In this document: piece after piece, positions 4,415-18,342 of the stretch | How positions within the stretch are numbered: position 1 is the stretch's first letter | Layout of the letters: every line of letters begins with the position of its first letter | Assembly (NCBI GenBank): GCA_002279765.1 | Contig: NCCR01000088.1 | Span: 6,634-28,993, forward strand | Source of the DNA: Verrucomicrobia bacterium 12-59-8 | Lineage (GTDB): Bacteria; Verrucomicrobiota; Verrucomicrobiae; Verrucomicrobiales; Verrucomicrobiaceae | Reading direction: 5' to 3' | Length of the DNA: 22,360 nt | Made by a program: the position numbers and the translations under genes | Notes under the pieces: generated by a model | Seen by the model: the letters and a program-made list of their open reading frames with translations, nothing else | Database searches by the model: none | What the model was told of the DNA's origin: nothing

Positions 4415-4735
4415 TCAAAACATCTCCCGCGCCTCTTCGATGCGCTTGCGCCAGTAGTAAGGACGGCGCTTGGCGTGGGCGATGGCGAGGATCACGAGCT
4501 TCTCCTGCCAAATCATGTAGGCGATGTAGTACTCACCAAAACGCGGTGTAAGATTGATTCGACGCGTGTTGCTACGACGAATGTTGAACAGCAGCGGTTC
4601 TTTGCAAATGTCCCCACGACATCTCTTATAATGCTCATCAAACGAATGAGCCAGTTCGGGATCAATGCCAAGATAGTGCTCTAAAGCTGCTTCCAATTCA
4701 TCTTCCGCCGCTGGATGGATGTGCCATGAAATCAT
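4415..4735 (-). CDS. RelE/ParE-family toxin of a type II toxin-antitoxin pair
   Basis: This is a 106-residue basic protein of ParE/RelE fold (plasmid stabilisation family). The C-terminal pattern is characteristic: a beta strand FGEYYIAYMI, then LVILAIAHAKRRPYYW at about 80-95, which matches the family's AIAHxRRxPxYWxxR ending. RelE-fold toxins either cleave mRNA on the ribosome or poison gyrase. ParE-like members with this ending are usually annotated as ParE, but the target cannot be decided here. The start codon overlaps the antitoxin stop as ATGA (4732-4735), so it is translationally coupled and made after the antitoxin, the usual order. It converges on polA, whose stop is 18 bases away. 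Confidence 0.87.
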   Translation of the reverse strand: MISWHIHPAAEDELEAALEHYLGIDPELAHSFDEHYKRCRGDICKEPLLFNIRRSNTRRINLTPRFGEYYIAYMIWQEKLVILAIAHAKRRPYYWRKRIEEAREMF

Positions 4736-5063: not shown

Positions 5064-6050
5064 CTAATCTCCGCTCTTCGGATCAAACGCATCGCGCAGA
5101 CCATCACCGAGGAAGTTGAGGGCGAGGAGACTTGCGGACATGAGGAGAGCGGGAAACACGAGGAGCCACCATTTACTTTCGAGCGGATTGATAACCTGCG
5201 CGCCGTCCTTGAGCAGGGAGCCCCAGCTTGCGGCAGGGTCTTCGATACCGAGACCGAGGAAGCTCAGGAAGGATTCGTCGAGGATGACGGCGGGAATGGT
5301 GAGCGTGAGGTAGGTGAGGATGATGGTGCTCAGGTTGGGCAGCAGATGCCGACGCAGCACGCCCCACGGGCTCTGGCCCATCGCACGGGATGCGGTGACG
5401 AAGGTCATCTCCCGCAGTACAAGCACCTGGCCGCGCACGATGCGCGCCATGGTGAGCCATTCGACGAGGCCAAGTGATACGATCATCACCAGTACTTTGG
5501 AATAGGCCTTCAGCTCGCTGATGTTTGCAGCCAGATCAGTCCAGTTTCGCGCCTCTGCGGCGAGACGCCAGCCGTCGATCCATTCCTTCACGTACTCATC
5601 AAGAGCAGCGATGAGGATCATGATGAAGAGGATACGCGGAACGGATTGCAGCACCTCGACGGTGCGCATCATCACGCCATCGATCCGACCACCCGCGTAG
5701 CCGCTGATCATGCCGTAAAGCGTGCCGATGCCGAGGCTGATCAGCGCGCCGATCAATCCTACGCCGAGAGACACACGAGCACCGGACAGCACTCGGTAGA
5801 GCATGTCCTGGCCGTTCACATCCGTGCCGAGCAGATGCAGCGCATGGGTTTCCACCGCATGCTGCAGCGGTGGGACAAAAGAGGCGCTGCTGGTGGCTTT
5901 CAGCTCCGCAGGCAGCAGCATGGGCACGACGACGGCAATGAGTGACAAGCCTGCAAGAAAACCGAGCGCGATGAGTGCTGCGCGGTTGCGCTTCAGGATC
6001 TGCCAGCCATCAGGCCTTGCGATGGATGCTGGAGCGGCGGCCTCAGGCAT
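5064..6050 (-). CDS. OppC/DppC-like ABC transporter permease with an inserted segment
   Basis: This 328-residue inner-membrane permease belongs to the binding-protein-dependent peptide/nickel family. It has an N-terminal cytoplasmic tail and first membrane helix (about 24-46), the family's early motif LLGTDVNGQDMLYRVLSGAR (73-92), and an EAA loop at about 220-239 (ASRAMGQSPWG, then HLLPN) that contacts the ATPase. The C-terminus has FLSFLGLG and WWLLVFPALLM. Compared with usual OppC/DppC proteins there is an extra stretch of roughly 35-40 polar residues at about 150-186 between two membrane segments (DEYVKEWIDGW to KAYSKV). The start overlaps the oppB-like stop by eight bases, so the two permeases form one unit. 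No ATPase or solute-binding protein gene is in the window, so the substrate is unknown. Confidence 0.92.
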   Translation of the reverse strand: MPEAAAPASIARPDGWQILKRNRAALIALGFLAGLSLIAVVVPMLLPAELKATSSASFVPPLQHAVETHALHLLGTDVNGQDMLYRVLSGARVSLGVGLIGALISLGIGTLYGMISGYAGGRIDGVMMRTVEVLQSVPRILFIMILIAALDEYVKEWIDGWRLAAEARNWTDLAANISELKAYSKVLVMIVSLGLVEWLTMARIVRGQVLVLREMTFVTASRAMGQSPWGVLRRHLLPNLSTIILTYLTLTIPAVILDESFLSFLGLGIEDPAASWGSLLKDGAQVINPLESKWWLLVFPALLMSASLLALNFLGDGLRDAFDPKSGD

Positions 6051-6963
6051 AGAGTTTGATGCGTTTGTCCAGCAGCGTGTAGATCACGTCCACGAACAGG
6101 TTGAAGAGCACGAGCAGCATGCAGTAAACGATGACGGCCCCGCCGAGCAGAAAGACGTCGCGATTCTGAATCGAGTTCACGAAAATCATGCCTGCCCCAG
6201 AGATGTTAAAGACACTTTCGACAATCATCGAACCCGTGAGCAGATGCGCCGCGAGCGGCCCGAGGAAGGTGATGACCGGTAGGATGGCCACTTTGATGGC
6301 GTGTCTTGCCACGGCCTGCGTTTCGGTGAGGCCCTTGGCTCGTGCCGTGCGCAGGAAGTCGCTTTTCAGCACATCGAGAAGGCTGTTGCGCATCAAACGC
6401 GCGACGTAGGCGATGTAGGGTGCGGCGAGGCAGATCGCGGGCAGGATCATCTGCGACGCGGTTCCCCAGCCCCCGACCGGCAGCCAGCCGAGCCACAATG
6501 CGAAAACCGCGATCAAAAACGGCCCGCTGATAAATGAAGGAATCGAAATGGACAGCAGAGCGCCAAACATCGCGGAGCGATCGATCCAGGTGTCTTTCTT
6601 CATCGCAGCCAAGCTGCCGAGAAAAACACCGGCACAACTCGCGATGACGAAGGCCAGCGTTCCCAGCGCGAATGAATTCGGCATCTTCTGCCTCAACAGT
6701 TCGGAGACACGCCAGTCGCGATAGCGCGTGGAGACGCCAAGATCGAAGTGAGCGATGGCTGAAACATAGGCGAAGTACTGTTGTAAGACAGTGCCATCGA
6801 GATGATACCGGGCCAGCTTCGCTTTCATCACCTGGTCACTGACCGCTTTGTCCGTGTCAAACGGCCCGCCTTTCGTGATCCGTGCGAGCACGAACGTGAT
6901 CGAGATCACGCAGAAGATCACAATCACGCTGCTGAAGGCGCGGCGGAGGAGAAACGGAAACAT
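6043..6963 (-). CDS. OppB/DppB-like ABC transporter permease
   Basis: This 306-residue permease is the partner of the OppC-like protein. It has the usual OppB plan. A first membrane helix spans about 10-29 and is followed by a periplasmic segment that includes the family motif FDLGVS (73-78). Several membrane helices follow, then the EAA loop beginning RTARAKGL at 205-212, then GSMIVESVFNISGAGMIF near the end. OppB and OppC normally make a heterodimeric channel with two ATPases and a periplasmic binding protein; those partners must be encoded elsewhere. The gene lies 39 bases downstream of the methyltransferase stop on the same strand and may be co-transcribed with it, though a functional link is not evident. 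Confidence 0.93.
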   Translation of the reverse strand: MFPFLLRRAFSSVIVIFCVISITFVLARITKGGPFDTDKAVSDQVMKAKLARYHLDGTVLQQYFAYVSAIAHFDLGVSTRYRDWRVSELLRQKMPNSFALGTLAFVIASCAGVFLGSLAAMKKDTWIDRSAMFGALLSISIPSFISGPFLIAVFALWLGWLPVGGWGTASQMILPAICLAAPYIAYVARLMRNSLLDVLKSDFLRTARAKGLTETQAVARHAIKVAILPVITFLGPLAAHLLTGSMIVESVFNISGAGMIFVNSIQNRDVFLLGGAVIVYCMLLVLFNLFVDVIYTLLDKRIKLYA

Positions 6964-9593: not shown

Positions 9594-12263
9594 TCATTTC
9601 GCCCCGTACTTTTCTTTCAGGTACTGCACGGTTTCATCCGCCGTATCGGCCTGAATCATCACCAAATCCCCCGCCTGCGCGGATTCGAGGGCCAGATCAA
9701 CCGCCTTCAAGTGGCCGAGAATGGACTCTACACGCCGGGTGCGCGGAGCGTTCTCCAGGCCAGTGGCGATGAGTTTCATGATCTCGCCCGATTCACGACC
9801 GCGCACATAATCGCCTTCGTAGAGCCAGGCTTCATCAAATTCTGCGCTCAGCATGCGGCCTTGTTCAATTATATCGCTGTCACGGCGGTCGCCAGCGGAG
9901 CTGTAAACGACGATGCGGCGCGGATTGCTAAACTGTCGCAAACCATCGAGCAATGCGCGGAGGGCATCGACGTTATGGCCGTAATCGACGATGACGGTGA
10001 TGCCTTTGAGATCAAGCACATTGAAGCGACCCGCATTTTGTTCGAGGCTGGGGACAAAGGTGCGTGCGCCCTGACGAATGAGGTTGTCGTCCATGCCCAG
10101 TGCCCATGCCGCCGCCACTGCGGCGAGGGTGTTTTCGACTTGAAAACCGATCCTCCCACCATGGGTGAGCGGGATTTCGCTCAGCGGCATCAGAACATCC
10201 TCATTCGGACCAGTGGCGCGAATGATGTTCCCATTGCGCACAAAAATGGCACGTTCCCCCTGGATGCGATGGCGGACGATGACGGCGCACTCACCGTCCA
10301 GAGCGAAGAAGATCGTTTTGCGCGGATAGGTCTCCGCCATTTTCACTACGAGCGGGTCAGCGGCGTTCAAGACAGCGCTGCCGTCGGCAGACACGGCGGC
10401 GACGATGCACTGCTTCACCTCAGCAAGCTGCTCTGGAGTGTCGATGTCATTGATGCCAAGGTGGTCGCCAGCCCCAATGTTGGTGACGACGGCGACGTCG
10501 CAGTGGTCAAAGGCCAGACCTTCCCGCAAAATGCCACCGCGGGCGGTTTCCAGCACGGCAGCATCACACAGTGGGTAGGAGAGGATGCTGCGGGCGCTCT
10601 TGGGACCACTACAGTCGCCGCTGTCGATCATTCGTGAACCGACAAAGACACCGTCCGTGCTCGTCATGCCCACGCGCCATTTGTTTTGAGTCAGCAGATG
10701 CGCAATGAAGCGCGTCGTGGTGGTTTTTCCATTCACCCCTGTCACGGCAACGATGGGGATGCGGCCACGGCATTCGGGGGCAAACATGGTGTCGATCACC
10801 GCTTTGCCCACGGGACGCGGCTCTCCTTCAGAAGGATACAGGTGCATGCGCAGTCCCGGACGTGCATTGAGCTCGATGATGACGCCGTTTCGCGGACTCA
10901 GGGGCTGCGTGATGTCCGGTGCGATCATGTCGAGGCCACAAATATCGAGGCCGACCATTTGCGCTGCTTCGACAGCGGCGGCGCAGATCGTGGGATGCAC
11001 CTCTGCGGTGCAATCGACGGCGGTACCGCCTGTGCTGAGGTTAGCATTGCGGCGGATGAGGATCATCCGGTCTTTTTCGGGGATCGATTCTGGAGTGACT
11101 CCCTGCTCGGCCAGCACGCCGATGGCGACGGCATCGATGCGAATGCGGCTCAGGGCGGCTGCGTGATCGGCGGCACGGCGTGGATCGCGATTCTTTTCAG
11201 CAATGAGTTCCTGGATGGTATGCTCACCATCACCGATGACATGCGCAGGATAGCGGCGTGAGACGGCAATGAGTTCACGTCCGATCACAAGTACTCGGTA
11301 GTCCTCCCCCTCGGCAAACTGCTCCACAATGACCGACCGGCTTTCCTCCCGGGCGGCATCATAGGCCTTGATGACCTGCTCGCGGGTGTACAAGTTTAAA
11401 GCGACGCCACGGCCCTGATTCCCGTCCAGCGGTTTCACGACAACGGGCAGGCCGATTTCATTGGCTGCGGCCCAGGCGTCGTCAGCATTCTTGACGGGGC
11501 GTCCCTGCGGCACCGGCAAGCCGATTTCATTGAGCATCCTGCGGGTGAAGTCTTTGTCCTGCACTATGTCTTCGGCAATCGCGCTCGTCTGACTGGTGGC
11601 GGCAGCGAGAATCTTCTTTTGTTTCGCTCCCCAGCCAAGCTGAACCAAGCTGCCTTCGGTGAGGCGATGAACCGGGATGCCACGCAGACGTGCGGCATCC
11701 ACCATGGCACGGGTGCTCGGGCCGAGACAGACACTTTGGGCGAGTTCGCCCAGTTCCGTGATGGCCGCGTTCACGTCCATGGTCTGGCCGAAGAGTGCAG
11801 CGTCGATCAAACGACGCGCGAGCTCGAAGGCTGCATGCGCCACAGCTTCCTCATCGAACTGTGTGATGATGCGGTAGGTCAGGGGCAGCGAGGTGGGCAT
11901 CACCTTGCCAAAGCTCACCTGAAGATCGGAGCGGCTTTGCAGATGCAGCGTGATGGACTGTAGCAGGGCCGCCAAGGCCTCCGCATGTGGTGTCAGACTG
12001 GTTTCGCTGAGCTGCGGCTCCAGAACCGGCAGCCAGGAAAGGAGCCAGGAACGCCAGTTCGAGACGTAGTCGGTCAGTTCGGGAAACTCAATTTTGCACT
12101 CCAAAACAGTCTCACGCGCCCAGAGATTCGGGCCGCGCAGCGCAAGGATTTTGCGCACAATGGTGGAGCGGAGTTCGCTGGATGGGGCAGAGTTGGACAA
12201 GCAAGAAATGGAACGCGCGGAATTGTCCACAGGCCTGAGGGAGGTCAAGGGAAACCTCGGCAT
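9594..12263 (-). CDS. cphA: Cyanophycin synthetase (full length, CphA1-like)
   Basis: This 889-residue protein has the full CphA domain order. The N-terminal domain begins near residue 38 (KILALRGPNLW). The ATP-grasp half spans about 225-490, with VVKPLDGNQGRGV (274-287), RRNANLSTGGT (404-413) and ELNARPGLRMH (464-474). The Mur-ligase half has P-loop GVNGKTTTTR (509-518), ETARGGILR (572-580), DYGHN (760-764) and GDRRD (791-795). In characterised CphA1 the ATP-grasp half adds aspartate to the backbone and the Mur half adds arginine to its side chain, building multi-L-arginyl-poly-L-aspartate, a nitrogen reserve. All the motifs look intact. The N-terminal ~150 residues diverge from the usual CphA pattern, and about 35 residues precede the RGPN motif, so a downstream GTG start near residue 36 is possible. 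The product, including the side-chain amino acid, is inferred. Confidence 0.92.
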   Translation of the reverse strand: MPRFPLTSLRPVDNSARSISCLSNSAPSSELRSTIVRKILALRGPNLWARETVLECKIEFPELTDYVSNWRSWLLSWLPVLEPQLSETSLTPHAEALAALLQSITLHLQSRSDLQVSFGKVMPTSLPLTYRIITQFDEEAVAHAAFELARRLIDAALFGQTMDVNAAITELGELAQSVCLGPSTRAMVDAARLRGIPVHRLTEGSLVQLGWGAKQKKILAAATSQTSAIAEDIVQDKDFTRRMLNEIGLPVPQGRPVKNADDAWAAANEIGLPVVVKPLDGNQGRGVALNLYTREQVIKAYDAAREESRSVIVEQFAEGEDYRVLVIGRELIAVSRRYPAHVIGDGEHTIQELIAEKNRDPRRAADHAAALSRIRIDAVAIGVLAEQGVTPESIPEKDRMILIRRNANLSTGGTAVDCTAEVHPTICAAAVEAAQMVGLDICGLDMIAPDITQPLSPRNGVIIELNARPGLRMHLYPSEGEPRPVGKAVIDTMFAPECRGRIPIVAVTGVNGKTTTTRFIAHLLTQNKWRVGMTSTDGVFVGSRMIDSGDCSGPKSARSILSYPLCDAAVLETARGGILREGLAFDHCDVAVVTNIGAGDHLGINDIDTPEQLAEVKQCIVAAVSADGSAVLNAADPLVVKMAETYPRKTIFFALDGECAVIVRHRIQGERAIFVRNGNIIRATGPNEDVLMPLSEIPLTHGGRIGFQVENTLAAVAAAWALGMDDNLIRQGARTFVPSLEQNAGRFNVLDLKGITVIVDYGHNVDALRALLDGLRQFSNPRRIVVYSSAGDRRDSDIIEQGRMLSAEFDEAWLYEGDYVRGRESGEIMKLIATGLENAPRTRRVESILGHLKAVDLALESAQAGDLVMIQADTADETVQYLKEKYGAK

Positions 12264-12327
12264 GAATCATTAAATGAGATGGTCCGCGCATTTCAGCGCC
12301 TCGGTTTGGGGAAATAACCGCCCCGGT

Positions 12328-12356
12328 TTGACAAGCTCTGGTAACATTGGACTATC
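12328..12356 (+). promoter_or_regulatory. Possible promoter for the ABC-DUF1854 unit in the divergent intergenic region
   Basis: A perfect TTGACA stands at 12328-12333. At a 16-17 base spacing there is only a weak -10 (GACTAT or ACTATC, 12350-12356). The region separates divergent cphA (start 12263) and the ABC gene (12347). If this promoter is real, transcription begins near 12362 and the in-frame TTG at 12383 is a better start than the one at 12347. Confidence 0.28.
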
Positions 12357-14602
12357 GGCGGCTTTCACGTTCCGCCTCCACTTTGCCGCGTCCCCTCATC
12401 CAAGACCTTCCCGACCTCCTGCTTCCGCATGCCGAGTCCAAACTGGCATCTGGTGAGCGCATGCTCGCCCGTCTGATGACGGACTTGGACGCCGGATTGC
12501 ATTTCCGGCATGGACTGATCGTGCTGACCAATACGCGCCTGCTGCATTTTGAGGATGCAGGCGCCAGCCAGCCGCGCTTCCTAGCCTGGAAGCTGGCAGA
12601 GTTGCAGGAGTTCAAACTGGAGGAAATGGGCGCGACCATTGCGCTGCACCTCATGGGAAACGGCACCCTCCTCGGCCAGTGGCGCGTGACTTCCGGCTGC
12701 CTGCGTCAGGCGGAGGCCTTTCTGGCACGGTTTCGGGAGCAGCGCCGGATCCTGAGTGGCGAGGACGGAGGCGCTGAAACCGGTGGCGATGAGGTCGAGG
12801 AGGATGAGGAGGAAATTTTTGCCGCTGAAGATGCCGAAGGGTACATCCCGCCGGGGAAGCCGCTGCTGCGCCTGCTGAGCTTTGCCCGGCCATGGTATCG
12901 ACTGCTCTTTCTCGGGCTGACGCTCACCCTGGCGAGCACCGGGGCGCAAATGATCGCCCCTTGGCTCACCATGTCGCTGGTGGATGACGTGCTCATCCCG
13001 CTGCAAAGCCAGACCGAGCAGGTGCATGTTCATCTGGTCTATGTGTTCATCACCGAACTGGCGCTTGCCGCCTTGCTGACCTGGGCGCTGAACTGGGGGA
13101 AAACGTTCGTGGTAGCGCGCATAGCCGAGCATGTGACCAGCCGCATGCGGCGGGAGACCTTTGAGCATCTGCAGCGGCTTTCCCTCACCTACTTCAACCG
13201 CAAGCGCACTGGAGACCTGATCTCTCGAATTGGTTCGGACACAGAGCATCTCTCTCTGTTTATTTCGGTGAACTTCATCGATTTCTTCTGTGATGTGCTG
13301 CAGTTCATTTTCACGGCGGTCATTTTGTTCAGCATCAACCCGCTTCTCGCTGTGGCCGCATTGGGTCCGGTGCCCATCGTCGCGTGGCTGGTGCAGCGAG
13401 TGCGTGAGCATTTGCGCGGTGGGTTTGCCGCGGCCAGCCGTGCGGGCAGCCAGCTCACCAGCGTGCTGGCGGACACGATTCCCGGCGTGCGCGTGGTCAA
13501 GGCTTTCGCACAGGAGAAGCGTGAGATCGAGCGCTTCCGCGTGGCGGACAAACACATCTTCGACACCAATGACCGTGTGAACAAGACCTGGTCGTTCTTC
13601 ACGCCGATGATCAAACTGCTGACGGACCTGGGCCTGCTGATCGTGTGGGCGGTTGGTGCCTGGAGCGTGGCGCACGATAGCATCACGGTGGGGGTGCTGA
13701 CAGGTTTTGTGCTTTACATCAGCAGCTTCTACGAGCGGATGGATTCGATGAGCCGATTCACGGCATCAATGCAGCGTGCCGCCGCCAGTGCGCACCGTGT
13801 CTTTGACGTGCTGGATGTAAAGCCGGACGTGCCGGTGCAGCGCAATGCGATCAAAGTGGGCCGCCTGCGTGGCGAGATCGAGTTTCGTGATGTGAAATTC
13901 CGCTATGGATCGCGTGAAATCATTCGCGGCATCAGTTTGAAAATCGCGCCGGGCGAAATGGTGGGATTTGTGGGGCCGAGTGGCGCAGGTAAAACAACGC
14001 TGGTGAACCTGGCCTGCCGATTCTTCGAGGTGAGCGAAGGCGCAGTACTGGTGGATGGCTTCAATCTGAGTGACGTCGATGTGATGGACTACCGCAGAAA
14101 CCTCGGACTCGTGCTGCAGGAGCCATATCTCTTTTATGGCACGATCGCGGAGAACATCGCCTATGGAAAACCGGAGGCGACACGGGCCGAGATCGTCGCT
14201 GCGGCGCGAGCAGCACGTGCGCACGACTTCATTATGCGGCTGCCGGACGCTTATGACTCCATGGTCGGCGAGCGCGGGCAGCAGCTCTCCGGTGGCGAAC
14301 GGCAACGTATCAGCATAGCGCGGGCGCTTCTCGTTGATCCGGCCATTTTGATTCTGGATGAAGCCACGTCCTCCGTGGACACTGAGACGGAGCGTGAAAT
14401 CCAGGCGGCGCTGGATCACCTCGTCAAAGGCCGCACCACGATCGCCATCGCGCATCGACTTGGAACCTTGCGCAAGGCCAGCCGGCTGGTAGTGATCGAA
14501 GAGGGACGCATCAAGGAAATCGGATCGCATGATGAACTGCTGAAGAGCAGCGGCACCTACGCGCGCCTGCATCAAGCCATGCTGGAGGTGAACCATTCAT
14601 GA
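12347..14602 (+). CDS. Cyanophycin-locus ABC exporter-type protein with extra N-terminal domain
   Basis: This 751-residue fused membrane/ATPase half-transporter would act as a dimer in the inner membrane. Residues ~15-135 form an extra, apparently soluble domain containing DLDAGLHF and LIVLTNTRLLHFE, resembling a PH-like fold. An acidic linker (about 143-163) follows. The type I exporter membrane region (about 175-480) has six hydrophobic helices, and the nucleotide-binding domain is complete: Walker A GPSGAGKTT (543-551), Q-loop LQEPYLF, signature LSGGERQR (647-654), Walker B ILILDEATSS and H-loop IAHRLG. This type is repeatedly found beside cphA and annotated as cyanophycin metabolism-associated; its substrate is unknown. 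There is no ATG start: TTG at 12347 or 12383 are the candidates. The first ATG (residue 39) would cut into the conserved N-terminal domain. It overlaps the DUF1854 gene by four bases. Confidence 0.9.
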   Translation: MDYRRLSRSASTLPRPLIQDLPDLLLPHAESKLASGERMLARLMTDLDAGLHFRHGLIVLTNTRLLHFEDAGASQPRFLAWKLAELQEFKLEEMGATIALHLMGNGTLLGQWRVTSGCLRQAEAFLARFREQRRILSGEDGGAETGGDEVEEDEEEIFAAEDAEGYIPPGKPLLRLLSFARPWYRLLFLGLTLTLASTGAQMIAPWLTMSLVDDVLIPLQSQTEQVHVHLVYVFITELALAALLTWALNWGKTFVVARIAEHVTSRMRRETFEHLQRLSLTYFNRKRTGDLISRIGSDTEHLSLFISVNFIDFFCDVLQFIFTAVILFSINPLLAVAALGPVPIVAWLVQRVREHLRGGFAAASRAGSQLTSVLADTIPGVRVVKAFAQEKREIERFRVADKHIFDTNDRVNKTWSFFTPMIKLLTDLGLLIVWAVGAWSVAHDSITVGVLTGFVLYISSFYERMDSMSRFTASMQRAAASAHRVFDVLDVKPDVPVQRNAIKVGRLRGEIEFRDVKFRYGSREIIRGISLKIAPGEMVGFVGPSGAGKTTLVNLACRFFEVSEGAVLVDGFNLSDVDVMDYRRNLGLVLQEPYLFYGTIAENIAYGKPEATRAEIVAAARAARAHDFIMRLPDAYDSMVGERGQQLSGGERQRISIARALLVDPAILILDEATSSVDTETEREIQAALDHLVKGRTTIAIAHRLGTLRKASRLVVIEEGRIKEIGSHDELLKSSGTYARLHQAMLEVNHS

Positions 14603-15078
14603 GCACGCAGCAGCCACAGAGCATCGAATTCGCCAAAGATGAGCTGGGCCGATTGGTGCTGGTAGATCAAGACGGCGTCCAGCATGTGAATGTACATCCC
14701 GCCAAACTCTTTCCACTGACCGAGAAAGACCACTGGATCTCCATTCAGTCCGAGGGTGCGCGTGAAATCCTGTGCATCGAGGATCCGCAAAGCCTGCCCG
14801 AGCCTTCGCGAACGCTGCTGCTCGATGCGCTGGCCCGGCGTGACTTTGTCCCCATCATTGAGGTGATCCACCGCATCGTGCGTCTGGCAGCTGGGCATGA
14901 ATGGCATGTCACTACGGATCGAGGGGATACGCGCTTTGAAGTGGAGACGGATGAAAGCATCCAAGCACTTGGCCATGGCCGTCTGGTCATTGTTGACCGC
15001 CGCAACACACGCTATCTTATTCCCAACGTTGCTAGCCTGGACCGAGTCAGCAAACGGAAGCTGGAGCACTACTACTGA
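14599..15078 (+). CDS. DUF1854 protein, cyanophycin-locus type
   Basis: This 159-residue soluble protein of the DUF1854 family has no signal peptide or membrane segment. Family features visible are the opening DELGRLVLVDQDG, the phrase HPAKLFPLTEKDHWISI, LPEPSRTLLLDAL, HVTTDRGDTRFEV and LDRVSKRKLEHYY at the end. The family has no established biochemical role. It travels with the ABC protein next to cyanophycin synthetases, which suggests a cytosolic partner of the transporter, but this is inference. Its ATG overlaps the ABC stop (ATGA) and has a near-perfect ribosome site GGAGGTGA seven bases upstream (14584-14591), the strongest I noticed in the window. Strong coupled expression with the ABC protein is expected. 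Confidence 0.9.
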   Translation: MSTQQPQSIEFAKDELGRLVLVDQDGVQHVNVHPAKLFPLTEKDHWISIQSEGAREILCIEDPQSLPEPSRTLLLDALARRDFVPIIEVIHRIVRLAAGHEWHVTTDRGDTRFEVETDESIQALGHGRLVIVDRRNTRYLIPNVASLDRVSKRKLEHYY

Positions 15079-15080
15079 CC

Positions 15081-16174
15081 TTGAACCCCGTTAACACCCC
15101 GCCAGCCACCACTCCACGTATCGATTCGCTCGATGTCTATCGTGGCATCGTGATGTTCCTGCTCGGTCTGCGCCTGCTGGAGTTCGACGAAGTTTCAAAA
15201 CACTTTCCCAAAAGCGCCATCTGGCAGTTTCTCGGCCATCATTCCTCCCACATTCCATGGGTGGGCTGTTCGCTGAATGATCTGATCCACCCATCGTTTG
15301 CTTTTTTGACCGGGGCGGCGCTGGTGTTCTCCATTTCATCACGTTCTAGAAAAGGCCAGTCGCACTGGCACACGACACTGCATGCGCTGTGGCGCTCAGT
15401 GGCGCTGATCTTCCTCGGAATTTTCCTCCGCAGTGTGGATCGTGATGAGACCCATTGGACCTTCGATGAAACGCTGACCCAGACCGGTCTCGGCTACATG
15501 GCGGCATGCAGCCGCATGCCAATTCCATGGACTTCAACACCCCGGAAGGCTGGCAGCATGATTTCACCGGCTTTTTCGCCCACTGGAATCACAACCGCAA
15601 TGTGGGCTGGAGCTTTGACCGCTGGCTGCTCAATGAGTTCCCGCGTGAGCGTCCCTATGTGGGTTATCTTGGAGGGTACACCACGCTGAATTTCGTCCCC
15701 ACCATCGCCACCATGATCCTCGGGCTGATGGCCGGCACATGGATCAAGCGGGCGGACCAGCCAGCCAGGCAGCTCATGATCGCGAGCGTCGCCTGCCTAG
15801 CCTTCAGTTTTGTGCTCCACTTCGGCGGCATCTGCCCCATCGTGAAGCGGTTGTGGACACCGGCCTGGGTGTTCTTCAGCGGCGGCGGCTGCCTGCTGAT
15901 TTTGGCGGCGCTGTATCAGATCATCGATGTCAGGCAGTGGCGGCGCTGGTCCTTTCCTTTTGTGGTCGTCGGCGTGAACTCCCTCGCCTTCTATGTGATG
16001 CGCCACACGCTGGACATCTGGTTTTCGGAGACACTCCGGAAACACTTTGGCACTCGCGTGTTTCAGATCTTCGGCCCGGAACTTCAGCCAGTCATGATTG
16101 GGGCATGCACCTTCCTCATTTTCTGGCTGGTCCTGCTATGGATGTACCGCCGAAAAATTTACATCCGGCTATGA
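15081..16174 (+). pseudogene. DUF5009/heparan-alpha-glucosaminide N-acetyltransferase-like membrane protein, broken by internal deletion and frame change
   Basis: Two reading frames together spell one family member. The first runs from a TTG at 15081, two bases after the DUF1854 stop, to about 15504. It gives the family opening RIDSLDVYRGIVMFLLGLRL, then WVGCSLNDLIHPSFAFL, ALIFLGIFLRSVDRDET and TQTGLGY. The second, in another frame from about 15506 to 16174, gives GWQHDFTGFFAHWNHN, then TTLNFVPTIATMILGLMAG and four further hydrophobic helices, ending WMYRRKIYIRL. Relatives carry about 45-55 residues, one or two membrane helices, between TQTGLGY and the tryptophan-rich motif; these are missing. 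So both bases and frame were lost at one point, right at a perfect hairpin (15503-15520). This could be a true pseudogene or an assembly error. Relatives move acetyl groups across the membrane, but the substrate here is unknown. Confidence 0.75.
15503..15520. repeat. Perfect short hairpin at the break in the acyltransferase gene
   Basis: GGCATGC (15503-15509) and GCATGCC (15514-15520) are perfect inverted arms of seven bases around the loop AGCC. The hairpin lies exactly where the acyltransferase reading frame switches and where about 150 bases appear to be missing, so it may mark a deletion joint or a place where assembly collapsed. Confidence 0.6.
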
Positions 16175-16182
16175 TGCCTAGG

Positions 16183-18342
16183 TCAGCTGTAGCTGCTTAC
16201 ACCATCGACGATTACTTGGTCCTCCAGTCCATAAGCCCATGCGGCACCTACTGCGGCGAGAACGTTAGGAACATTGAAGCTAAAATGGCCGGTAAGCGGC
16301 ATGGCCACCTCACTTAGCGCACAGAGACGGCGGGCTGTGTCACCTTCGGCAAGATAAACCTCGTCATCCTGCACGAAGACTGCGCGCCCACCTTTCGCCC
16401 GATGGGCGATGACCACAGGATTATCCGCCATGTGTGAGAAGAACAGCACGCTGCAAAGGCAGTGCTGTGACTCTGCCATGCCAGCTACGAAAACATCATC
16501 GGCATTGAGCACAGCAGTCCCCTCCGGCAGCACGACATCCACCACACAGCGCTTCACCTTGGTCATTTGCTCCATGGTGTCGATGTAGCCCAGCCCGAGA
16601 TGCTCAGTCCCTACATTGAGTACGACGCCGATCTGGCAACGGTCATACCCAAGTCCCTCAAGAAGAATTGACTCAGCGCTGCTCTCACAGATGGCTATCT
16701 CTGTCCACGGATGCAGCAATACTCCGTACGTGCCGCTGGTGCGGTCACCATTTTTCGTGGTGGCAAAGCGTTCGCCAAACTGCAGCCCACCGCTGTGACA
16801 CACACCGAGAAATTTTCCGGTGGCTTTCATCAGATGCGCCAGCAGCCGGGTAGTGGTGGTCTTGCCATGGGTGCCGGTGATGCCAATCACAGGAATGCGG
16901 CCGTCTTTCCCGGCAGCAAACATCATGTTGATGATCGCTTCGCCAACGGGCCGCACCTCACCCGTGGCAGGCCTCAGGTGCATGATGAGCCCCGGGCTGG
17001 CATTCAATTCCACAACGGCACCGCCCTGGTCTTCGAGAGGTTTGCTGATGTCCGTACACACCACGTCCACCCCGCAGATGTCCAGCCCCGCCACCTGCGC
17101 GGCGATGGTGACGTGTTCACGGTTGCGCGGATGCACCAAGCCGGTCACCTCAGTGGACCAGTTGGCAAAACGCGAGATCAGAACCCGCTCTCCGTCATTG
17201 GGAATCGAATCCGGCAGGTAGTCCTGCTTCTCCAATTCAGAGAGAATTGCAGGATCCCATTCTTCCGTGTCAATTTTGGACCATGGGCAGAAGTCACTCA
17301 CGCCGCGCAGCGGATTGGTGTTCAGTTGGGTGTCCACCAGCGTAGCAATCGTATCGGTGCCAGTGCCGGTGATGACCGCATGGTCACCACGGCTTGCCGC
17401 GATCAGTTCCCCGCCGACGACGAGCAGACGGTGATCATTGCCTGGAATGAAGCGCTCCACCATCACCCCATCACCTTCCGTTGCGGCGGTTTGGAACGCG
17501 CTCTCCACCTGCTCGCGCGTGGTGAGGTTGATGAACACGCCGCGCCCATGGTTCGCATCCTGCGGTTTCACCACCACGGGAGTGCCGATGTCCTCCGCCG
17601 CCTCCCAGGCGTCGTCGGGATTGGCAACGACACGTCCTTCAGGCACGGGCACCCCTGCTTTGCTTAACAAGGTACGTGTCAGATCCTTGTCCTGCACAAT
17701 GTGCTCTGCGATGGCTCCGGTGCGATCAGTTTCCGCCGTCCAGATGCGGCGCTGATTCACCCCCTGCCCTAGCTGAACCAGACTGCGGCCCTCCCGGAGC
17801 CGCCGCCATGGAATGCCGCGTTTTGCAGCAGCGGCGATGATGGCGTTCGTACTTGGCCCGAGTGCGTTGCGGTCCACCACACGCTTCATGCGCGCCACGG
17901 CGTCATCGATGTCGTACGCTTTGCCAGCATACCCTGCCAGAAGGATCTCGCGCGCCTCACGCATGCAGGCTTCAGCCACGACCTCATCTAGATATTCGAT
18001 GACCACTTTATACAGGCCCTCCACGCAGGTCTCCCGCGCCTTGCCAAAGCCGACAGTATGTCCGGCCAAGGTCTGAAGTTCCAGAGTCACATGCTCCAGA
18101 ATGTGCCCAGGCCAAGTGCCGGTGTCGAGCCGCTGAAAAAATCCCCCGCGCTCGCCAATGCTGCAGCGGTGCTCGATCATGCCGGGGAACCACGTTTTGA
18201 GCTGCTCGCTAAAACCGGGCACGATGTCGGATGAGGTGTCTTTGAGCCCGCCCAGGTCCACCCAGGCTTCCAGCACGGGATCGTTCGTCCAGATGTTGGG
18301 TCCGCGGAGAAAGTGGATTTCACGAATGTCGAGGTCGGTCAT
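16183..18342 (-). CDS. Short cyanophycin synthetase homologue lacking the Mur C-terminal domain
   Basis: This 719-residue protein aligns with CphA from its first residues (FLRGPNIW at 11-18) through the N-terminal domain (HILEHVTLELQ, 80-90). The ATP-grasp half has VVKPQDANHGRGV (257-269) and ELNASPGLIMH (445-455). The Mur middle domain has P-loop GITGTHGKTTTTR (487-499). It stops at VDGVSSYS, the point that precedes NxGRFN in the long enzyme, so about 150 residues (the Mur C-terminal domain with DYGHN and GDRRD) are absent. Motifs also differ: ESSAESILL (553-561) replaces ETARGGILR, and NWSTEVTG replaces NLSTGGT. It may be a CphA2-like enzyme, which in cyanobacteria joins beta-Asp-Arg dipeptides, or a CphA-prime subunit paired with the long enzyme. 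It converges on the broken acyltransferase, eight bases away. Confidence 0.88.
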   Translation of the reverse strand: MTDLDIREIHFLRGPNIWTNDPVLEAWVDLGGLKDTSSDIVPGFSEQLKTWFPGMIEHRCSIGERGGFFQRLDTGTWPGHILEHVTLELQTLAGHTVGFGKARETCVEGLYKVVIEYLDEVVAEACMREAREILLAGYAGKAYDIDDAVARMKRVVDRNALGPSTNAIIAAAAKRGIPWRRLREGRSLVQLGQGVNQRRIWTAETDRTGAIAEHIVQDKDLTRTLLSKAGVPVPEGRVVANPDDAWEAAEDIGTPVVVKPQDANHGRGVFINLTTREQVESAFQTAATEGDGVMVERFIPGNDHRLLVVGGELIAASRGDHAVITGTGTDTIATLVDTQLNTNPLRGVSDFCPWSKIDTEEWDPAILSELEKQDYLPDSIPNDGERVLISRFANWSTEVTGLVHPRNREHVTIAAQVAGLDICGVDVVCTDISKPLEDQGGAVVELNASPGLIMHLRPATGEVRPVGEAIINMMFAAGKDGRIPVIGITGTHGKTTTTRLLAHLMKATGKFLGVCHSGGLQFGERFATTKNGDRTSGTYGVLLHPWTEIAICESSAESILLEGLGYDRCQIGVVLNVGTEHLGLGYIDTMEQMTKVKRCVVDVVLPEGTAVLNADDVFVAGMAESQHCLCSVLFFSHMADNPVVIAHRAKGGRAVFVQDDEVYLAEGDTARRLCALSEVAMPLTGHFSFNVPNVLAAVGAAWAYGLEDQVIVDGVSSYS

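Follow-up and report, generated by a model that had tools for sequence, protein, structure and literature searches.

A verrucomicrobial cyanophycin locus in which two synthetase homologues with complementary active sites suggest a divided enzyme

Introduction

Why should a bacterium keep two cyanophycin synthetase genes in one locus when CphA1, as published, combines a polymerase with a primer-making site of its own (PMC9262961)? The question is raised by a stretch of 22,360 nucleotides from Verrucomicrobia bacterium 12-59-8 (contig NCCR01000088.1, positions 6,634 to 28,993), hereafter the window, which carries a five-gene array of a longer synthetase (LONG, minus strand), an ABC transporter gene, a DUF1854 gene and a broken acyltransferase-like gene (all on the plus strand), and a shorter synthetase homologue (SHORT, minus strand). 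The initial annotation, made from the sequence alone, had read this layout as a cyanophycin-type locus and the host as verrucomicrobial, and our analysis bears it out: all parts lie where they had been placed, and the nearest named relative of SHORT is a Prosthecobacter metagenome-assembled genome (94% identity). Because the two genes have kept opposite active sites, we propose that LONG and SHORT represent one synthetase divided, in which LONG likely builds the Asp-Arg chain and SHORT likely cuts chains into primers; from the sequence comparisons we put the probability of this reading at roughly 0.57.

Complementary active sites

The synthetase features of the window are as follows.

9594..12263, minus strand: LONG, a CphA1-type synthetase of 889 amino acids with G- and M-domain ligase sites, no N-domain peptidase site, and Gln267 in TeCphA1 numbering (TIGR02068, 959.9 bits, cut-off 850; residue tables)
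16183..18342, minus strand: SHORT, a synthetase homologue of 719 amino acids that keeps the N-domain peptidase site intact, has an altered aspartate pocket and is without the M-domain C-lobe (PF18921, 112.6 bits; Mur_ligase_C without a match; residue tables)
18091..18165, minus strand: Cys60-x19-His80-x2-Glu83-His84 motif of SHORT, the primer-making metallopeptidase site of CphA1 N domains (sequence; motif defined in PMC9262961)
17149..17163, minus strand: aspartate-binding loop of SHORT (ANLSTGGIAVD in TeCphA1), short by about five residues, the gap being placed to within 1-2 residues (alignment to 7lg5 and 7wac)

The initial annotation had recognized two synthetase homologues, and both do belong to the cyanophycin synthetase family, but it missed that the copies are complementary. 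SHORT falls under the TIGR02068 equivalog cut-off that LONG exceeds (757.3 versus 850 bits) and lies above that of the cyanophycin synthetase subfamily NF010623 (927.9 versus 877 bits). With the aspartate- and ATP-site residues of CphA1 taken from PMC9427784, LONG retains K220, K261, R309, R323, N394, S396, D431, E450, R458, K499 and E558 (TeCphA1 numbering) together with the C-lobe, sharing both ligase domains and the checked catalytic residues of CphA1 (TIGR02068; structures 7lg5, 7wac, 7lgm and 7lgn) except at positions 215 (Asp) and 267 (Gln), and the residue table shows no Cx19HxxEH N-site motif in it. What SHORT shares with CphA1 is the N domain with the primer-making site, where the alignment to the solved CphA1 structures reads C-x19-HILEH. 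The aspartate-binding residues of its G domain are altered, R323 to Gly and R458 to Ile, in addition to the shortened loop, and the protein stops where the M-domain C-lobe should start (alignment coverage 0). The M-domain P-loop GTHGKTT is present in the window copy; the P-loop Lys is replaced in SHORT copies from Burkholderiales.

For a wider comparison, copies were grouped by locus (groups centred on Prosthecobacter, Ramlibacter and Myxococcota), those with identical core sequence were merged, and 22 of the 197 aligned copies were then dropped for incomplete cover of the N, G and M regions, among them a Chryseobacterium copy (L148), a damaged LONG from genome G654 (L173), and a LONG (L135) and a SHORT (L042) that each run over two frames. 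The remaining 175 complete copies comprise 55 SHORT (23 from Verrucomicrobiota, 25 from Burkholderiales and 7 from Myxococcota), 90 LONG (38, 46 and 6, respectively) and 30 canonical copies. The N motif C59/H79/E82/H83 is found in 55/55 SHORT, 0/90 LONG and 29/30 canonical copies, the single canonical copy without it being L049 (genome G082); the Chryseobacterium copy, outside these counts, has no N motif by pattern search. The intact aspartate loop with R323 and R458 is found in 90/90 LONG, 0/55 SHORT and 30/30 canonical copies. The C-lobe is present in 89/90 LONG (the exception, L137, has an early stop), in 30/30 canonical copies and in 2 of the 54 SHORT copies with a known end, the 55th (L160) being truncated by a contig end and left out of this count. 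Since 52 of these 54 copies are without a C-lobe, truncation, whether local or by assembly, was rejected as an explanation of the SHORT form. Building and cutting appear to have been separated by evolution in three phyla.

SHORT fully keeps the endo-cyanophycinase set of the N domain: besides the C-H-H metal site and the Glu base, all 55 copies share the published N-site residues H57, F67, R70 and E87 without exception, and every one of the 90 LONG copies has a gap in the F67-R70 stretch. Conservation by domain runs in opposite directions in the two forms. Between Verrucomicrobiota and Burkholderiales, the N-domain core is 57% identical in SHORT and 25% in LONG, and the M-domain N-lobe 37% and 56%, respectively; G-domain identity is 55% in SHORT and 57% in LONG. 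As controls, 20/20 copies from 20 of 41 canonical-only Myxococcota genomes keep the N motif. The loss of the N site in all LONG copies is unusual, though not unique, because 83% of CphA1 carry that site (PMC9262961).

Transport genes and their distribution

Between the two synthetase genes lie the following features.

12347..14602, plus strand: exporter-type ABC transporter in which membrane and ATPase parts are fused (NF052233, named 'cyanophycin metabolism-associated ABC transporter'; 1000.2 bits, cut-off 880)
12461..12757, plus strand: N-terminal extension of the ABC protein, seven predicted strands and one helix, with a weak bacterial PH-domain match (model mean predicted local distance difference test score, pLDDT, 70.5; bPH_3, E=0.022, below cut-off)
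14599..15078, plus strand: DUF1854 protein, its gene sharing 4 bases with the end of the ABC gene (PF08909, 125.6 bits)
15081..16174, plus strand: broken membrane acyltransferase-like gene of NagX type (two pieces match NF046061)

The next-best scores of the ABC protein are to exporter families. Its structural model is weak (mean pLDDT 70.5, predicted template modelling score 0.43), and the N-terminal extension may be PH-like. The DUF1854 protein is recognized by Pfam and stays below the NF052234 cut-off (137.6 versus 150 bits); its structural comparison gave no confident match, from which a new fold should not be concluded.

GTDB species genomes, scanned with a DUF1854 alignment as query, gave 48 DUF1854 loci (38 Verrucomicrobiota, 7 Burkholderiales, 1 Myxococcota, 1 Gemmatimonadota and 1 Actinomycetospora), and in most of those with sufficient flank LONG, ABC, DUF1854 and SHORT are all present, so that the layout is conserved. 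The Burkholderiales arrangement has SHORT then LONG on one strand, divergent from ABC-DUF1854. CphA matches were found in 28 of 30 tested DUF1854-locus genomes, where in every case one match exceeded the cut-off and one or more shorter ones fell below it, and none in the Gemmatimonadota and Actinomycetospora genomes, the other two of the 30. The Gemmatimonadota locus (L047:5300-10498) has a DUF1854 gene with two ABC genes in tandem; perhaps it belongs to a wider ABC-DUF1854 family with another substrate.

The initial annotation held that ABC and DUF1854 genes travel with cphA. That link stands, but the partner is the two-copy type: ABC-DUF1854 tracks this type, not canonical CphA1 or CphA in general. 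Nor is the pair equally frequent away from cphA in the families tested, the finding by which the initial annotation would have dropped the link. Among 68 genomes of the Prosthecobacter family (that of locus L001), 31 have CphA, and an ABC match of at least 840 bits occurs in 30 of these 31 and in 0 of the 37 CphA-free genomes; the exception, G261, is a fragmentary assembly. In the same family, only a short CphA copy was found in G228, and weaker ABC matches of 551 and 576 bits occur in G225 (no CphA) and G226, respectively. For the 200 genomes of the Ramlibacter family (that of L044), among the matches listed, ABC is present in 121/125 CphA genomes and 0/75 others, and in 121/121 two-copy versus 0/4 single-copy genomes. 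Two-copy here means at least two CphA matches, and the pair was read in DNA for L038-L040, L042-L044, L046, L087-L113 and L122-L141; the four CphA genomes without ABC have a single CphA match each, three canonical by score and one partial.

In the phylum Myxococcota (that of L045), 49 of 188 genomes have CphA and seven have DUF1854 above the cut-off. All seven of the latter have long- and short-type CphA matches (G654, whose long copy is damaged, has a canonical CphA1 besides), and DUF1854 reaches the cut-off in 0/41 genomes with canonical CphA1 only. Seven weaker DUF1854 matches (62-85 bits) fall in five genomes without CphA, in G593 with canonical CphA1 and in G627 with a 377-bit CphA-like match. 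Only 3 of 194 genomes have CphA in the wider phylum to which G001 belongs. These co-occurrence counts are uncorrected for kinship, and G082, with its canonical copy lacking the motif, stands outside the ABC counts. Plasmid searches with the DUF1854 and ABC proteins gave no match at the limits used; for SHORT, 19 of 23 plasmid matches cover at least 80% of the protein at one place per record, and seven of the records served as controls. A DUF1854 match below the cut-off was seen in the control genome of Sulfolobus acidocaldarius, so the family may reach archaea.

Polymer turnover

The absence of a nearby cyanophycinase, stated in the initial annotation, was confirmed: none of the 18 window proteins scanned matches peptidase S51, the cyanophycinase family. 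Cyanophycinase exceeds the cut-off in 4/42 genomes with long or short copies and in the one canonical genome of the same test, and in the Ramlibacter family, among the matches listed, in 35/121 two-copy versus 4/4 single-copy genomes. The next enzymes were sought with matches at E up to 1e-20. The 33 pair genomes examined, of which 6 are Burkholderiales, gave IaaA in 2 and IadA in 0; 10 canonical genomes gave IaaA in 4, IadA in 7 and at least one of them in 8. The published share of beta-proteobacteria with IadA or IaaA, 70.9%, is higher than that of the pair genomes here, and the same study recognized a cyanophycinase in 2.8% of 903 beta-proteobacterial cphA1 genomes and suggested unknown isozymes (PMC10206079). 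Among the plasmid controls, 6/7 loci have cyanophycinase, isoaspartyl peptidase or both beside cphA.

Two loci (L017:10427-11560 and L020:10426-11529) encode an S51 cyanophycinase-like protein between DUF1854 and SHORT, with 109-110 bits and below the cut-off. Its start resembles a lipoprotein signal by eye, and it is possibly an exported cyanophycinase.

Interpretation

In the proposed division of labour, LONG would make cyanophycin and SHORT would act in trans as an endo-cyanophycinase on the product of LONG, the cut chains serving as primers from which new LONG chains start. A published precedent is the N domain of SuCphA1, which, given in trans, turned a primer-dependent CphA1 primer-independent; its activity is slow, and the product is mainly the tetramer (beta-Asp-Arg)4 (PMC9262961). 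The balance of building and cutting in CphA1 is not adjustable by expression, since one gene encodes both (PMC9262961); separate genes would let the cell set cutting and building independently. ABC and DUF1854 would handle the oligomers or polymer of the pair, be it by export, by import or as a polymer-surface ATPase, the three roles that the initial annotation had considered. Wastewater data show both cphA copies of Accumulibacter evenly expressed, the identity of these copies as LONG and SHORT being assumed (PMC10687191).

Several observations sit uneasily with this division. His267, which supports catalysis in TeCphA1 (PMC9427784), is replaced by Gln in 88/90 and by Lys in 2/90 LONG copies, and Gln267 is also carried by an intact single copy (L085). 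E215 is kept in only 1/90 LONG and 0/55 SHORT copies, but it is changed in 14/30 canonical copies too. Within the N site of SHORT, the substrate-contact positions S60, E90, G97 and T101 are variable. The ATP and Mg2+ residues K220, K261, R309, D431 and E450 are retained in all 55 SHORT copies, and the SHORT G domain is conserved like that of LONG; SHORT may therefore do more than cut, with the binding of chain ends, the stabilization of a complex or another ligation reaction as possible roles. Linkage is not strict either: SHORT and LONG lie on separate contigs in G007, G009, G014 and G017, with ABC on a third contig in G009, and the apparently damaged LONG of G654 sits in a genome that has a canonical CphA1 as well. 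Primer-independent synthesis is reported to be faster with all three sites in one protomer (PMC9262961), and the absence of the N site does not by itself point to a partner, since a primer-dependent single CphA1 (TmCphA1) exists. Finally, most tested pair genomes are without the known degradation enzymes, a poor fit with ordinary storage.

The tight link to an exporter-type ABC protein and the scarcity of known degradation enzymes in pair genomes make export the boldest reading still open: LONG would polymerise, SHORT would trim the polymer to short oligomers, and ABC-DUF1854 would ship them out. We regard this as possible but on the unlikely side. It draws on the pair tracking LONG-SHORT rather than canonical CphA1, on the exporter families next in score, on the mainly tetrameric N-domain product (PMC9262961) and on the S51 protein with its lipoprotein-like start between DUF1854 and SHORT in L017 and L020, whereas DUF1854 has no confident structural match, and more distant ABC-DUF1854 pairs such as L047 occur without CphA. 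Put in full, it would be a polymer secretion system, in which a synthetase split by gene duplication into a cutter and a builder without primer site works with a dedicated ABC-DUF1854 exporter and Asp-Arg oligomers are shipped instead of stored, which we offer as a tentative proposal. Were SHORT instead the missing cyanophycinase, degrading the polymer for nitrogen recovery and not making primers, the rarity of recognizable cyanophycinases in beta-proteobacterial cphA1 genomes (PMC10206079) and their lower share in two-copy than in single-copy Ramlibacter-family genomes, among the matches listed, would be explained. SHORT is in this sense a candidate answer to the unanticipated lack reported for beta-proteobacteria, but we consider the reading improbable, given a published N-domain activity that is slow and yields mainly tetramers rather than dipeptides (PMC9262961) and the scarcity of the next enzymes as well (IadA 0/33, IaaA 2/33).

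That SHORT serves chiefly as a structural or regulatory component in a mixed complex with LONG, the N site being secondary, would suit a G domain (dimer-forming in CphA1; PMC9427784) that is conserved like that of LONG though its aspartate pocket is gone; the invariance of H57, C59, F67, R70, H79, E82, H83 and E87 in all 55 SHORT copies is unlike a relic and leaves this reading distinctly doubtful. A CphA2-type ligase joining beta-Asp-Arg dipeptides is the least credible identity for SHORT. Like CphA2 (7ta5, 8fxh), SHORT is shorter than CphA1 and has no M-domain lid, ATP-grasp residues are kept, and neither has R458 (a by-eye reading of a bridging alignment gives Phe in 7ta5; SHORT has Leu, Ile or other residues). 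The N-site motif, however, is in SHORT and not in CphA2 (PMC9262961), whereas 7ta5, the one CphA2 structure compared, has an intact aspartate-loop region and keeps R323 and the S396-G399 loop, both lost in SHORT, which also scores 517 bits to CphA1 versus 154 to CphA2. On these residues CphA2 was rejected; the M-domain P-loop, absent from CphA2, is present in the window SHORT. We retain the divided synthetase as our preferred reading.

Relation to published systems

The layout of two cphA copies with an ABC gene and no cphB is already known, as is the association of ABC and DUF1854 with cyanophycin. The Group 1 cphA cluster of activated-sludge bacteria, with two cphA copies and an ABC transporter but no cphB, probably has the same layout; in the parts of that source consulted, flanking insertion sequences are reported and the active sites of the two copies are not compared (PMC10687191). 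The NCBIfam names NF052233 and NF052234 already state the cyanophycin link, which is narrower here and ties the ABC-DUF1854 transporter to one type of enzyme pair in the genomes tested. In most bacteria CphA1 is one three-site enzyme (83% with the N site; PMC9262961), whereas here the sites are split over two genes. Tatumella TmCphA1, which is primer-dependent, is like LONG in being without the N-domain peptidase motif; unlike LONG, it has no short partner in the sections of PMC9262961 consulted. Two neighbouring synthetase genes are described for Sideroxydans, and the name CphA2 is used for such neighbouring pairs (PMC5178258); judged by its residues, that name would not fit the features of SHORT, and labelling such short copies CphA2 seems misleading. 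Neither the reciprocal active-site loss with its tie to ABC-DUF1854, nor any paper naming both cyanophycin and DUF1854, was found in the literature searched (Creative Commons-licensed articles in PMC). For polymer production in E. coli, LONG-SHORT pairs are suggested as native two-protein sets.

Evolutionary origin

A FastTree phylogeny of 87 sequences, built on the alignment region TeCphA1 150-715, places LONG and SHORT together in one clade (support 1.0), within which SHORT from Verrucomicrobiota and Burkholderiales forms one clade (support 1.0); the LONG copies did not form a clade of their own in this tree. The sister of the joint clade is L085, an intact single copy whose genome (G467) has a cyanophycinase beside it. 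Two Myxococcota SHORT-type copies (L168:4445-7054 and L169:4377-7226) have the motif, have lost the loop and still carry a decayed C-lobe, and they are likely an evolutionary intermediate. Taken together, the tree and these C-lobe-bearing copies suggest a gene duplication followed by opposite site losses, with the C-lobe lost later.

Further arrangements of synthetase genes were noted. Genome G458 has two LONG-SHORT pairs (L137 and L138), the LONG of one pair ending early. A 600-amino-acid CphA-like ATP-grasp protein in G009 (L164:7684-9483) lies next to an S51-like gene and has an incomplete M domain as in CphA2; G226 has a similar match. A second match covering the M domain only (TIGR02068 about 475-858) occurs in 25/41 canonical-only Myxococcota genomes, mostly adjoining CphA1, and also in L162 and L163; it is a putative free-standing Mur-ligase-like partner of CphA1. 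On a Ruegeria plasmid (L145), the corresponding position is taken by a Mur ligase family gene.

Other genes of the locus

The acyltransferase-like gene had rightly been called broken: 94 bases present in three intact relatives (L002, L003 and L005) are absent after window base 15504. Its two pieces score 33.7 and 92.6 bits to NF046061 (NagX), and an intact relative 124.5 bits, far below the cut-off of 480. Matches to it were found in 16/26 Verrucomicrobiota loci with DUF1854 and SHORT on one stretch and in 0/7 Burkholderiales loci, and it was rejected as a core component. An HGSNAT-type membrane acetyltransferase gene (PF07786) stands beside DUF1854 on the opposite strand in Myxococcota (L045:10440-11471) and is perhaps related to it.

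In three Verrucomicrobiota loci (L016:11588-12694, L026:12574-13692 and L035:13343-14443), a TGL gene (protein-glutamine gamma-glutamyltransferase, PF20085) adjoins SHORT. About 2.6 kb from LONG, the window holds two oligopeptide-type permease genes (OppC- and OppB-like, 5064-6963), with similar open reading frames at their place in L001 and L002; from their sequence, a dipeptide importer role is conceivable. A small protein at 4415-4735 of the window matches ParE_toxin with 24.3 bits (cut-off 23).

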